Below are positions 8,863 to 13,517 of a stretch of DNA of 64,000 bases, one piece after another; within the stretch, counting starts at the first letter, position 1; each line of letters begins with the position of its first letter. This DNA is from Hyphococcus flavus. GTDB taxonomy: Bacteria; Pseudomonadota; Alphaproteobacteria; Caulobacterales; Parvularculaceae. The position numbers and the translations under genes are program-made. The notes below the pieces were generated by a model. That model made no database searches and had not been told where the DNA came from. It saw only the letters and a list, made by a program, of their open reading frames with translations. The stretch lies in assembly GCF_028748065.1 (NCBI RefSeq), contig NZ_CP118166.1:3053501-3117500 (forward strand), in the 5' to 3' direction.

Positions 8863-11800
8863 CTAAATCAGCTCAACATCCGTAACGCCTTCAAGGCTTT
8901 TTAACGCACCGCGCATTGCAGGCGTACAGGCTGCTTGCTCCGGCAATGTGATATCAACCTCCCTGCCGGTTTCCGGCAGGCGCAGCACAACAACAACCGA
9001 GCCGCTTTCGCGCTGACTTGCCGGCTTAACAGCAGCCAGACGCCGCTTCAGACCATCAAATGCATCTGCCGTAGAGATTGATATGCGAAGCTTAGAAACT
9101 GCAGCAGCAGCGGCGGCGTCAAGTCCGCGGATCGTTTCACAGGTAAAACGCGCATCACCATCACGATCTTCCACTGTGACGCTCACGAGCAACATTGCGC
9201 CAGTTTCCAGAAGGTCGCGTGAACGATTTAAGGTCTCGGCGAAAACAGTAATTTCATAATCACCGCTTTGATCTGAAAGCTCAACCCATGCAAACGGATT
9301 TCCGTTTTTCGACCGCCGCATGCGTACCGTTCGGACCACGCCCGCCATCTGAATTAAGGCGGCGCCCGACTTCGCTAACGAAACGGCTTCAGTAAATGAC
9401 GTAACGTTGAGACGCTTTAATTCTTTTTCGTAATCATCCAGCGGATGCCCGCTAAAGTAAAAACCCACGGCCGCCCGTTCCTCATCCAGAAGCGCCTGCG
9501 GCGTCCAGTCTTCTACGATTGGCAATTTTGGCTTTGCGAGCGCAGGCGCGCTATCAAGGGCAAAAAGCCCGGCCTGATCGCTGTTCCGCTCCTCGAGGAT
9601 AGCGGCTGATGTGCGGATTAATAATTCTGCAGCGGCAAAGGCCTGGGCCCTTGAGGCGCAAAGCCCGTCAAAAGCGCCAGCGCGAGCGAGGTTTTCCAAA
9701 GAGCGCTTGCCGATGAGTTTGAGGTCCAGGCGTTCGGCAAAATCGATTAAGTCTTTAAACGGCCCGTTTTGCGCCCGCTCCAGAGCGATATGGCTCATCG
9801 CCCCTTCACCAACATTCTTGATCGCTGAAAGGGCGTATGTGATAGCGCCGTCTTCCACAGAAAAATCCGCCTGCGAATGATTGACGTGCGGGGGAAGAAC
9901 CTCAACGCCCGTGCGGCGCGCTTCCTTTAAAAAGATCGCAAGCTTGTCTGTATTAGCGCGGTCGAGCGACATTGAAGCGGCCAGAAATTCCGCCGGATAA
10001 TTCGCCTTTAGCCAGGCGGTCTGATAAGCGATGTACGCATAGGCGGCAGCGTGGGATTTGTTGAAGCCGTAGCCGGCGAACTTCTGGACAAGATCAAAAA
10101 TGGAAGAAGCCTTGGCGGCCGGAACATCGTTGTCTTTTGCACCATCGATGAACCGTTTGCGTTGACGGTCCATTTCCTCTTTCTTCTTCTTGCCCATGGC
10201 GCGGCGCAACAGATCAGCCTCACCAAGGGAGTAGCCCGACAGAATTTGCGCAATTTGCATCACCTGTTCCTGATAGATGATGACGCCGTAAGTCTCCTTC
10301 AGCACGTCCTCGAGCATCGGATGCAGGTAATCCGGCTTTTGGTTGCCTTGCTTGCGCTCGATATAAGTCGGTATGTTCTCCATCGGCCCCGGGCGATAAA
10401 GAGAAACAAGAGCGATAATATCCTCAAGCGTATCGGGTTTCATGGCGCGCAGCGTGGATCGCATGCCTGCGCTTTCAAGCTGGAACACGCCGGTCGCCGC
10501 GCCCTCGCCCAGCATCTCGAAAGATGCCTTGTCGTCGAGGGGTATTTTGCTCATATCGAGGATAGCGCCGCGCTTGCCGGCAAGCGCCACGGCGCGGTCG
10601 ATAACAGTCAGGGTTTTCAGACCCAGAAAGTCAAATTTTACGAGCCCCGCCGGCTCGACCCACTTCATGTTAAATTGGGTCGCAGGCATGTCAGACCGAG
10701 GGTCGCGATAAAGCGGAACAAGCTCGTCAAGAGGACGATCGCCAATCACCACGCCCGCAGCATGCGTTGACGCATGCCGGTAAAGCCCCTCAAGTTTCAG
10801 CGCCTTTTCGATGAGCGCAGACACCGCCTCGTCACTGTTGCGCTCCTCTTTAAGGCGGGGTTCGGTTTCGAGCGCTTCAGCAAGCGTCACCGGATTGGCG
10901 GGATTGTTGGGTACGAGTTTGCAGATGCGGTCAACCTGCCCAAAGGGCATGTTCAGCACACGGCCCACATCCCGCAGCACCGCACGCGCCTGCAGTTTTC
11001 CGAACGTAATGATCTGTGCGACACGATCACGACCGTATTTTTCCTGAACATAACGAATGACTTCATCGCGCCGGTCCTGACAGAAATCGATATCGAAGTC
11101 CGGCATCGAGACGCGTTCAGGATTCAAAAATCGCTCGAACAGAAGACCGAACCGCAATGGATCAAGATCGGTGATCGTCAGCGACCAGGCGACAAGTGAA
11201 CCGGCGCCGGACCCACGTCCGGGCCCCACCGGAACGCCGGCGTTTTTCGCCCACTTGATGAAGTCCGAAACGATTAGAAAATAGCCGGGAAAACCCATGC
11301 TATTGATGATGTCGAGCTCGGTTTTCAACCGTTCCCAATAATCACTTTCCGATGCAAAGAGCGGGTTATGGCGCAGACGCTCTTTCAATCCTTCGCGCGC
11401 CTGGCGCTCAAGTTCCATCGCCTCGGCATTGGCCGTATCGCCATCGGCGCTTTCAGCAAAGCTCGGAAGAATGGGATCGTGAAAACGCGGCCGGAACGCA
11501 CAACGGCGCGCCACCTCAACAGTATTTTCAATGGCTTCCGGCAGATCGTGAAACAACGCCGTCATTTCTTCCGTGGATTTGAAAAAATGATCCTGCGTTA
11601 CCTTGCGGCGGTCATCCTGATGAACATAGGCTCCGTCCGCCACGCACAGTAACGCGTCGTGCGCCTCATAATCGTCCGGTGTCGGGAAAAACGGTTCGTT
11701 TGCAGCGACCAGCGGCAGATCAAGATCGTAGGCAAGGTCGATGAGATCAGCCTCGGCGTTTTCGTTTTCCCGTCCGCGATGGCGTTGCAACTCGACGTAA

Positions 11801-12312
11801 AGGCGATTGGGGAAAAGCCGCGCAAGCTTTTCCATCACCATTCGCGCTTCTGCGGACCGGCCTTCACGAAGAAGGCGATCAACCGGCCCATCGAAACCGC
11901 CCGTCAGGCAAATCGTCCCGCTGTTTGCGTCTTCCAGCCATTCCATGCTGGCGCACGCCCCTTCTTCTGAACGAGAATCGAGAAACGCGCGGCTCGTAAT
12001 CTTCAACAGGTTTTTGTACCCGGCTTCATTCTGCGCGAGCAGGACAATGGCGGGCGGGCGGACACCGCTCGTTGCCGGCAGCCCGAAGTCGGCTGGGTCA
12101 AACGCCTGCTGCAACCCTGTAATTGGCTGAATCCCGGCGCCAGCAAGCGTCGTGGACGCCTCCAGCGCGCCAAAGAGGTTATTAGTGTCTGTTACCGCGA
12201 CAGCGGGCATGCCTGCTTCTGTGCAAAGATCTTTCAACCTGCTTATGGGAATGGCGCCCTCAGCAAGGGAATAAGCCGAATGCAGGTGGAGATGAACAAA
12301 TGGCGCCGTCAC
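8863..12312 (-). CDS. dnaE: DNA polymerase III alpha subunit (replicative)
   Basis: Catalytic subunit of the replicative polymerase. The PHP domain opens with FVHLHLHSAYSLAEGA; the polymerase core has GPGRGSGAGSLVAWSL and the metal-binding PDFDIDFCQDRRDEV; a helix-hairpin-helix and an OB domain (GVVRTVRMRRSKNGNPFAW) follow. The start is uncertain: GTG at 12312 gives a family-like N-terminus (VTAPFVHLHL), while GTG at 12345 would add 11 residues. Length of about 1,149 aa and an intact OB/C-terminal part favour replicative DnaE over the error-prone DnaE2/ImuC. It follows a 31-codon membrane-protein gene controlled by an SOS-type promoter, so part of dnaE transcription may be damage-inducible. 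Confidence 0.96.
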   Translation of the reverse strand: MTAPFVHLHLHSAYSLAEGAIPISRLKDLCTEAGMPAVAVTDTNNLFGALEASTTLAGAGIQPITGLQQAFDPADFGLPATSGVRPPAIVLLAQNEAGYKNLLKITSRAFLDSRSEEGACASMEWLEDANSGTICLTGGFDGPVDRLLREGRSAEARMVMEKLARLFPNRLYVELQRHRGRENENAEADLIDLAYDLDLPLVAANEPFFPTPDDYEAHDALLCVADGAYVHQDDRRKVTQDHFFKSTEEMTALFHDLPEAIENTVEVARRCAFRPRFHDPILPSFAESADGDTANAEAMELERQAREGLKERLRHNPLFASESDYWERLKTELDIINSMGFPGYFLIVSDFIKWAKNAGVPVGPGRGSGAGSLVAWSLTITDLDPLRFGLLFERFLNPERVSMPDFDIDFCQDRRDEVIRYVQEKYGRDRVAQIITFGKLQARAVLRDVGRVLNMPFGQVDRICKLVPNNPANPVTLAEALETEPRLKEERNSDEAVSALIEKALKLEGLYRHASTHAAGVVIGDRPLDELVPLYRDPRSDMPATQFNMKWVEPAGLVKFDFLGLKTLTVIDRAVALAGKRGAILDMSKIPLDDKASFEMLGEGAATGVFQLESAGMRSTLRAMKPDTLEDIIALVSLYRPGPMENIPTYIERKQGNQKPDYLHPMLEDVLKETYGVIIYQEQVMQIAQILSGYSLGEADLLRRAMGKKKKEEMDRQRKRFIDGAKDNDVPAAKASSIFDLVQKFAGYGFNKSHAAAYAYIAYQTAWLKANYPAEFLAASMSLDRANTDKLAIFLKEARRTGVEVLPPHVNHSQADFSVEDGAITYALSAIKNVGEGAMSHIALERAQNGPFKDLIDFAERLDLKLIGKRSLENLARAGAFDGLCASRAQAFAAAELLIRTSAAILEERNSDQAGLFALDSAPALAKPKLPIVEDWTPQALLDEERAAVGFYFSGHPLDDYEKELKRLNVTSFTEAVSLAKSGAALIQMAGVVRTVRMRRSKNGNPFAWVELSDQSGDYEITVFAETLNRSRDLLETGAMLLVSVTVEDRDGDARFTCETIRGLDAAAAAAVSKLRISISTADAFDGLKRRLAAVKPASQRESGSVVVVLRLPETGREVDITLPEQAACTPAMRGALKSLEGVTDVELI

Positions 12313-12359
12313 CGGATCCCAAGACCTTTCGTGGAGTTGCCGCACTAACCGGCGGGAGC

Positions 12360-12455
12360 TCAGGCCCCCAGTAAGACGCCCCAGAATTGCGCCGCCCCGA
12401 TCACTGTCATGAGTACGCCGAGTCCGATGATGTCGCGCAAGCCTTCGTTTTCCAT
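12360..12455 (-). CDS. Very small single-helix membrane protein upstream of dnaE, candidate SidA-type SOS cell-division inhibitor
   Basis: A 31-codon gene reading MENEGLRDIIGLGVLM... and ending in WGVLLGA. After a charged N-terminus, residues about 8-30 form one hydrophobic helix. The ribosome site is strong: AGGGAG followed by seven bases to the ATG. A -35/-10 pair (TCGACA, 17 bases, TATAGA) lies just upstream, and an alphaproteobacterial SOS box (GAAC-N7-GAAC on this strand) overlaps the -10. From memory, Caulobacter sidA is a 29-residue SOS-induced membrane peptide that blocks FtsW/N and is encoded just upstream of dnaE; size, topology, control and position agree. Sequence homology was not tested. 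It could instead be a TisB-like toxin or a leader gene for dnaE. Confidence 0.72.
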   Translation of the reverse strand: MENEGLRDIIGLGVLMTVIGAAQFWGVLLGA

Positions 12456-12473
12456 AGTGACGCTCCCTTTTGA

Positions 12474-12488
12474 GTTCGTCTTTTGTTC
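12474..12488 (-). promoter_or_regulatory. LexA/SOS box (GTTC-N7-GTTC)
   Basis: The plus strand reads GTTCGTCTTTTGTTC, a perfect match to the direct-repeat LexA site GTTC-N7-GTTC known from alphaproteobacteria such as Caulobacter, Rhizobium and Rhodobacter. Its second half overlaps the -10 element of the promoter for the 31-codon gene, where bound LexA would block RNA polymerase. A third GTTC occurs at 12503-12506, 14 bases further, and may be chance. Confidence 0.78.
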
Positions 12489-12515
12489 TATATTCCCTTT
12501 TTGTTCTCCTGTCGA
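12487..12515 (-). promoter_or_regulatory. Promoter of the small SOS gene and dnaE
   Basis: On the minus strand a -35-like TCGACA (12510-12515) is separated by 17 bases from a -10-like TATAGA (12487-12492). Transcription would begin about 25 bases before the start codon at 12455. The SOS box overlaps the -10. A short inverted repeat, GTCGA-N6-TCGAC (12511-12526), lies over the -35 and could be a further protein site. No other obvious promoter separates the 31-codon gene from dnaE. Confidence 0.6.
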
Positions 12516-12560
12516 GACAAATCGACTATTGCCAGACCAGCGTTTTCCACAGATCGGTTT

Positions 12561-13217
12561 TTAGGCTGTATTATCAACAGCTTGTAGCGCTTCGAGTTCA
12601 CCACCGCGGATGGCGGAAAGGTTGGCCGTCACTTTTTCCACAGGCCAGTTCCACCAGGCGATGCGGCCAAGCTCCAGCACCGTCGCATCGTCAAAACGGC
12701 GTTTGATGGTGCGCGCCGGGTTCCCCACTGCTATGCCATAAGCAGGCACGTTCGAACCTACCACCGCGCGAGCGCCGATGATCGCCCCGTCACCGATGGT
12801 AACGCCGGGCAGGATCATCGCCTCCGTCCCGATCCAGACGTCGTTACCGATAACCGTATCGCCTCGCGAATTATTGGCCCAGTCGTATCCCGGATCTTCC
12901 CAGCCCTGCCCGAATACGGCGAAGGGATAGGTCGAAAGCCCGGTCAAGGTGTGGTTTGCGCCGTTCATGATGAACTGGACGCCGACAGCGATGGCGCAAT
13001 AGCGCCCGATGATCAGCCGGTCACCCAAATGCTCAAAATGATAACGAACGCAGCGCTCAAGAAAACACTCCGGTCCCGCAACGGGATCGTCATAATAAGT
13101 GTACTCGCCAATCTCCACCATCGGGTGATCGACCAGCGGCTTTAGAAAACCGACCTGAGAGAAGCCGGTCATTGGATGAGGGTTGTCAGGGTCCGGACCA
13201 TTCGTGCGAACAGACAT
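12561..13217 (-). CDS. CatB-type xenobiotic O-acetyltransferase (left-handed beta-helix)
   Basis: A 218-residue hexapeptide-repeat acetyltransferase. The C-terminal half has the repeats ([35 protein letters not shown]) and the family stretch [11 protein letters not shown]. An insertion of the CatB/VatD type ([18 protein letters not shown]) carries the expected catalytic-region histidine. The start at 13217 is preferred because GGAGG lies four bases upstream; an ATG 12 codons earlier lacks a ribosome site. Relatives include chloramphenicol and streptogramin acetyltransferases, but many chromosomal members have unrelated substrates, so resistance is not implied. The SOS promoter region lies downstream. 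Confidence 0.88.
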
Positions 13218-13363
13218 AAAACCTCCAAAATTCTGGATTTCAAAAAAGCGCACTAAGCGCCATTAATCACGAAAACTGGAAGTTAGTTGTTCACTTTAAG
13301 AATAGTCCTTATTCCAAAATATGTTTCGCAGATAACACCAGATCACGACAAAGTCCAGAAGCT

Positions 13364-13492
13364 CTATTCAGAAGATACTTCTACCTCATCAACTGTCGGC
13401 CCTGACCGGTTACCATTGGCGACGATCAAGAGCACGCCCGCGATGAGTAATACAGCGATGAAGGCAAAGAGCAGCCAATGGCGAGGGGTCAT
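13364..13492 (-). CDS. Small single-pass membrane protein, unknown function
   Basis: A 42-codon gene beginning MTPRHWLLFAFIAVLLIAGV, with one transmembrane helix at about residues 6-25 and a polar, acidic tail ending EVEVSSE. GGAAAG lies five bases upstream of the ATG. It sits 25 bases after the threonine synthase stop codon on the same strand, so it may be the last gene of that operon. The longer opposite-strand frame over this region has no ribosome site or recognisable content. I do not recognise the family. Confidence 0.6.
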   Translation of the reverse strand: MTPRHWLLFAFIAVLLIAGVLLIVANGNRSGPTVDEVEVSSE

Positions 13493-13517
13493 GAATACTT
13501 TCCGTATGGATGCATGC

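Follow-up and report, generated by a model that had tools for sequence, protein, structure and literature searches.

Directly upstream of dnaE in Hyphococcus flavus lies a frame of only 31 codons behind a LexA-type box, which raises the question whether it is a true gene and, if so, whether it encodes a DNA-damage-induced inhibitor of cell division comparable to SidA of Caulobacter. An earlier note on this DNA had proposed a 'diverged or analogous SidA'. We followed up this proposal in the window (the whole stretch analysed, 64,000 nucleotides of contig NZ_CP118166.1, positions 3,053,501 to 3,117,500 of the forward strand) and at the corresponding loci of other bacteria.

The small gene and its neighbours

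The dnaE gene (replicative DNA polymerase III alpha) occupies 8863..12345 on the minus strand, the GTG at 12312 being the likelier start compared with 12345, because most relatives match DnaE from residues 10–15. With this start, about 47 nt separate dnaE from the small frame, which lies on the same strand at 12360..12455, begins with ATG and comprises 31 codons plus stop. The neighbour upstream of the small frame is a hexapeptide-repeat acetyltransferase gene (PF00132; 12561..13253, minus), giving the minus-strand order acetyltransferase, promoter, small frame, dnaE, and thus the position directly before dnaE that also marks sidA. Another short hydrophobic frame (MTPRHWLLFAFIAVLLIAGVLLIV...) was seen at 13364–13492 on the minus strand, where no SOS box was noticed; two relatives (G020: L014/L087; G010: L086) have counterparts near this locus that start with MTPRHW.

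The ribosome site that the earlier note had described was found as GGGAG at 12463..12467 (minus), 7 nt 5' of the ATG, and purine-rich stretches occur near this position in the promoter alignment of relatives. Its single helix was likewise borne out by prediction: AlphaFold, given the lone sequence, models the candidate SidA-type microprotein MENEGLRDIIGLGVLMTVIGAAQFWGVLLGA as one helix spanning residues 2–30 (mean pLDDT 93.3), so that in predicted fold and in length (31 as compared to about 29 residues) the peptide is consistent with SidA. The N-terminal tail (MENE..RD) is net acidic, with E2, E4, and D8 against R7, and in this differs from SidA; beyond D8, the helix lacks charged residues. 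In the window's genus, all 23 orthologues, chosen by their first codons, consist of 31 codons, the second codon position is the most conserved one, and 253 pairwise comparisons gave a pN/pS of 0.274 (mean pS 0.397, mean pN 0.109). A ratio of about 0.27 together with second-position conservation indicates protein-level selection; the small frame is real and selected as a protein.

Promoter and LexA-type boxes

Upstream of the frame, at 12474..12488 (minus), lies the perfect LexA-type box GAACAAAAGACGAAC, GAAC-N7-GAAC or, on the plus strand, GTTC-N7-GTTC, a putative operator that is kept in relatives. The earlier note had named GTTC-N7-GTTC as the binding site of alphaproteobacterial LexA, and GTTCN7GTTC is indeed given in the available part of PMC12700426. 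The box alone was rejected as evidence, since perfect boxes occur at chance frequency both in the window (3 as compared to 2.2 expected) and in the whole genome (97 versus 129 for a reversed control pattern). The combination of box and frame, unlike the box alone, exceeds chance. The 174 regions of DNA upstream of dnaE taken from relatives of the window (including four duplicates) were scanned for a perfect forward box with a frame of 22–45 aa (hydropathy 1.6) no more than 75 nt behind it, before dnaE. This main scan returned 87 of the 174 regions, none of the same number of opposite strands, and 2 of 10,440 Markov-resampled sequences. A laxer scan (21–50 aa, 85 nt, hydropathy 1.5), used for the family and class counts given below, found perfect box and frame in 90/174 forward, 0/174 reverse, and 0/6960 resampled sequences; a separate scan of named loci allowed one box mismatch. 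With one mismatch, the lax scan picks up 34/6960 resampled sequences of this first set and 19/2720 of the class sample described below.

Read by eye, the promoter would consist of a -35 hexamer TCGACA (12510..12515) and, after a 17-nt spacer, a -10 hexamer TATAGA (12487..12492), both on the minus strand; GAATATAGAAC stands at the -10 in 16 of 22 promoters of the genus. Of the promoter previously proposed here, with its box overlapping the -10, the hexamers and the overlap are present, but a consensus promoter scanner run on 12250–12620, which demands T as the final -10 base, does not list the TCGACA/TATAGA pair. Transcription would presumably start inside the perfect box and yield a leader of about 25 nt.

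The follow-up analysis also revealed a second, degenerate LexA-like box, GAACAAAAAGGGAAT (GAAC-N7-GAAT; 12492..12506, minus), which was absent from the earlier description. This putative upstream operator is offset from the perfect box by exactly 18 bp. At this offset, a box with at most one mismatch recurs in all 22 promoters of the genus and in the relocated copy of genome G002 (see below); after deduplication, 32 of 47 family genomes also have it, all but one of them with GAAT (31 of 32). Of the 32 family genomes with the upstream box, 26 have a TTGACA-like hexamer (5 of 6 positions) directly before it. None of eight other SOS-type boxes in the own genome has a partner at 18 bp, and about 97 % of SOS promoters in Caulobacter carry one box (PMC12700426, available part). 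In other orders, a single perfect box occupies the position of the upstream box of the window's family, and TTGACA (5 of 6 or better) lies 1–9 nt before it in 17 of 25 cases, compared to 4.9 % of random positions. It therefore seems that the upstream box is the ancestral operator, with its distal half ceded to the -10, and that the perfect box was added later. Three Brevundimonas-type genomes (L031–L033) and L228 have two perfect boxes, likewise offset by 18 bp; the remaining promoters of families f3 and f5 have second boxes at different offsets or none.

Conservation and relation to SidA

In the window's family (f1, Parvularculaceae), perfect box and frame occur together in 46 of 50 regions (lax scan, deduplicated, own genome included), a count that excludes G017, which has no upstream DNA, and the duplicates L109, L110, L168, and L185, which repeat four of the G genomes and were dropped from the family and class counts. 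All four exceptions retain a frame: behind imperfect boxes in G030, behind degenerate boxes in G099, on a contig ending before the box in G027, and, in G002, on a different contig from dnaE (MENERLQDVVGLGVLLMVIGAAQLWGALLAV, with both boxes; L106 = G002:C33:20500-23000). In the latter genome, the 700 bp before dnaE contain no forward box, even at one mismatch, and the relocated small gene is preceded by an acetyltransferase frame that, by eye, resembles that of the window (L106). Frame and boxes have thus moved together, which argues that the box goes with the frame and not with dnaE.

A profile built on f1 matches 45 of 299 genomes of the order, namely 44 of 60 family genomes and one genome of family f5 (G147, a weak match inside a 481-residue frame away from dnaE); G027 has a second match at a contig end. 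The best matches lie upstream of dnaE within 500 bp in 43 of the 44 family genomes. The profile misses 9 of the 10 genomes of the sister genus g2, which supplies 10 of the 50 family regions; the frames that the scan selected there have 25–33 aa, and their assignment relies on box and hydrophobicity. With one box mismatch allowed, frame and box were found in 20/20 genomes of f5 and in 5/7 of f4. Neither a box nor a small frame was seen before dnaE in the six genomes of f2 (L044–L049) and in two named Hyphomonadaceae (L180, L183), an apparent loss. In f3, 8 of 11 genomes and 5 of 6 named records have both, which are undercounts, since the hydrophobicity filter misses Brevundimonas-type frames (L031, L032, L228). 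The earlier note had named a lack of conservation of frame and box in relatives as the outcome that would speak against it; frame, box, and synteny are kept, and its observation is confirmed.

How, then, does the small gene relate to SidA itself? The NCBIfam model NF033228 (cell division inhibitor SidA, equivalog; curated cut-off 35 bits) matches 48 of the 299 order genomes (33 above and 15 below the cut-off), all of them in f3, which the named loci and the control Caulobacter vibrioides, likewise matched, place as Caulobacteraceae. Counting the best match per genome, all 48 are located 44–359 bp upstream of the dnaE match on the same strand, in line with the earlier note, according to which sidA adjoins dnaE; G049 has a second, weaker match elsewhere. 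The window peptide matches no NCBIfam family up to E 10, it does not reach the cut-off of NF033228, and the own genome has no match to that model, so that the gene is classed as SidA-like rather than as a SidA equivalog. Pfam searches with eight peptides gave only sub-threshold matches to unrelated families. Direct alignment of f1 and f3 by hhalign gave an E of 0.088, whereas f5, whose frames resemble those of Maricaulis and Hellea, bridges both groups (f1–f5, E 7.7e-7; f5–f3, E 1.4e-7).

The same arrangement extends beyond the order. Among 31 named records that belong to neither Caulobacterales nor Rhodobacterales (three of them with less than 250 bp upstream), nine have a perfect box and a frame before dnaE: Devosia sp. 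ZB163, Aureimonas fodinaquatilis, Methylobacterium phyllostachyos, Methylorubrum salsuginis, two PS1-clade records, a Rhodobiaceae, a Hyphomicrobiales, and an unclassified MAG. Commensalibacter, also among the 31, has a box but no frame, and none of 32 Rhodobacterales has a perfect box with a frame. Membership in Rhodobacterales and the other groups of named records was assigned by hand from the titles of the records. In a class sample of other orders, consisting of the best-scoring 68 of 137 non-order genomes with a DnaE match and hence not random, the lax scan found a perfect forward box in 16 of 68 regions and a frame behind it in all 16; the 68 opposite strands held 7 boxes and no such frame, and 2720 resampled sequences held 31 boxes and one frame. 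Two negative genomes (L186/L268, L187/L279) count twice, once among the named records and once in the class sample. None of nine representative peptides from other orders or f5 matched an NCBIfam model.

These distant peptides allowed for a held-out comparison, in which a profile was built from 24 other-order peptides only and scored against 118 decoy hydrophobic ORFs, 106 reversed, and 1060 shuffled peptides; among the peptides compared, L284 was mis-trimmed and long N-terminal extensions were cut. The profile tells the 43 window-family and the 13 SidA peptides apart from decoys (AUC 0.993 and 0.995, respectively), from reversed (0.987 and 0.990), and from shuffled peptides (0.983 and 0.988), with 29 of the 43 and 12 of the 13 outscoring all decoys. 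The window peptide obtains 13.7 bits, a score reached by 0/118 decoys, 0/106 reversed, and 1/1060 shuffled peptides. Three other, held-in mixes gave it lower scores of 6.6 bits (reached by 1 decoy, 0 reversed, and 21 of the 1060 shuffled peptides), 9.3 bits (0, 0, and 3, respectively), and 4.7 bits (1, 2, and 33). A Caulobacterales profile recognises the other-order peptides less well (AUC 0.928, 0.889). The f1-only profile fails to set SidA apart (AUC 0.798 against decoys, 0.626 against reversed peptides), and a Caulobacteraceae-only SidA profile places the window family little above decoys (AUC 0.671) and the window peptide at -2.0 bits, with 83/118 decoys scoring as high. Direct homology to SidA was thus negative by NF033228, by hhalign, and by the Caulobacteraceae-only profile. 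By position, by operator and, indirectly, by profile, the small gene nevertheless groups with SidA. Of the two alternatives in 'diverged or analogous', the shared synteny, the operator, and the held-out profile favour the former, despite the failure of the direct models. Very short hydrophobic helices can converge, which counts against descent from SidA.

Proposed function and origin

We consider it probable, on the analogy with Caulobacter, that the window gene is a diverged, LexA-repressed division inhibitor of the SidA type, that is, a DNA-damage checkpoint microprotein. In the undamaged cell, LexA bound to one or both operators across the -10 and the transcription start would keep the gene off. 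Upon damage, RecA would trigger LexA cleavage and free the promoter, and translation of the short-leader mRNA would then yield a single-pass inner-membrane helix of 31 residues, which may keep the septal wall synthase (FtsW/FtsI/FtsN) from working until the damage has been repaired. LexA binding, induction, membrane insertion, division block, and target are all inferred from the known case. The model is the SidA mechanism of Caulobacter (PMC4211646, available part), where SidA is, as the earlier note had it, a 29-residue inner-membrane peptide; AlphaFold 3 puts SidA on TM7 of FtsW with low confidence (PMC13396833, available part).

With SidA of Caulobacter, the window gene shares a LexA-type promoter box, a length of about 30 residues, one hydrophobic helix after a charged pair, the place directly upstream of dnaE, and the occurrence as a usually single match per genome. 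It differs in being missed by NF033228, in its acidic tail, in its putative 18-bp-spaced double operator, and in the acetyltransferase gene directly upstream. Other small membrane proteins of the damage response offer further comparisons. YneA, SosA, and ChiZ of Gram-positive bacteria are longer than the window peptide, DidA of Caulobacter is also larger, and TisB and DinQ of E. coli act on membrane functions, are controlled by antisense RNA, and have no known link to dnaE. The three Gram-positive proteins, likened here by description, are damage-induced membrane inhibitors for which an action on FtsW has been proposed, but YneA contains a LysM domain (PMC13396833, available part). DidA, too, is a small damage-induced membrane inhibitor of division; however, it is SOS-independent, induced by DriD, and binds FtsN (PMC4211646, available part).

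The E. coli peptides suggest an alternative, in which an SOS-induced membrane-depolarising peptide slows the cell by membrane leak and not by binding to the divisome. Size, single helix, and LexA control are alike (for DinQ, see PMC3567139), and large sequence divergence is what a loosely constrained helix would lead one to expect. Yet TisB and DinQ have long leaders and antisense RNAs, whereas here the leader would be about 25 nt and no Rfam family matches within 11800–13500; in addition, the helix has no charged residue beyond D8 and the gene occupies the genomic place of proven SidA. We consider a depolarising peptide unlikely. The closeness to dnaE in all but one of the 44 matched family genomes, the gap of about 47 nt in the window, and the lack of a terminator-like site in 12250–12620 could also point to a LexA-controlled leader or upstream frame that tunes dnaE, its peptide having no action elsewhere. 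This is quite improbable, since the attachment to dnaE is not constant (in G002, the frame and its two boxes lie elsewhere), the spacing from the dnaE match ranges between 20 and 359 bp, and selection acts on the protein. Just as improbable is a conserved LexA-controlled microprotein of SidA descent whose target has changed, for example, to envelope synthesis or a protease: the failure of the direct SidA models and the different N-terminal charge would fit, but with position, operator, and helix kept, a kept function is the simplest explanation. A chance frame plus a chance box, for which the chance frequency of the box by itself might speak, has a negligible probability, being already refuted by the counts of the main scan against opposite and resampled strands and by the pN/pS.

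Returning to a diverged SidA-type inhibitor, its distribution may reflect an ancient origin, in which case SidA would not be peculiar to Caulobacter. In our view, the balance of the data tips slightly towards the following joint proposal: a LexA-repressed gene for a one-helix division inhibitor upstream of the replicative polymerase gene would be an ancestral alphaproteobacterial checkpoint that predates the split of Caulobacterales and Hyphomicrobiales; it would since have disappeared from Rhodobacterales and from part of the Caulobacterales, and would have escaped notice because its genes are only 25–45 codons long and have diverged past the SidA model; and in Parvularculaceae, the ancestral operator would have lost its distal half-site to the -10, with a second box as backup. 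In the part of the open-licence literature that was covered, no description of SidA outside Caulobacter or of the position of sidA beside dnaE was found. Should these genes work as SidA does, a single conserved gene position would predict a DNA-damage brake across many genera, dozens of natural variants would serve to map how a bare helix stops FtsW, and the question would arise why the brake has remained adjacent to dnaE despite large sequence change. To our knowledge, an SOS division inhibitor has been named in few alphaproteobacteria.

Elsewhere in the own genome, which has one lexA, nine of the 97 perfect boxes were picked by eye and inspected. Six of them adjoin lexA, two Y-family polymerase genes, uvrB, a ComM-type Mg-chelatase gene, and mmcB, which points to a LexA regulon in this genome and counts in favour of the proposed LexA control; no SOS gene was recognised next to another of the nine (L103). 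The fetched upstream DNA of recA (G000:C1, L107) contains no perfect box, the nearest being GAACAAATAGCGTAC, with one mismatch and 64 bp before the assumed start. The remaining two perfect boxes lie directly before a radical-SAM gene (L097) and a glyoxalase-like gene (L100), which may be further SOS genes.
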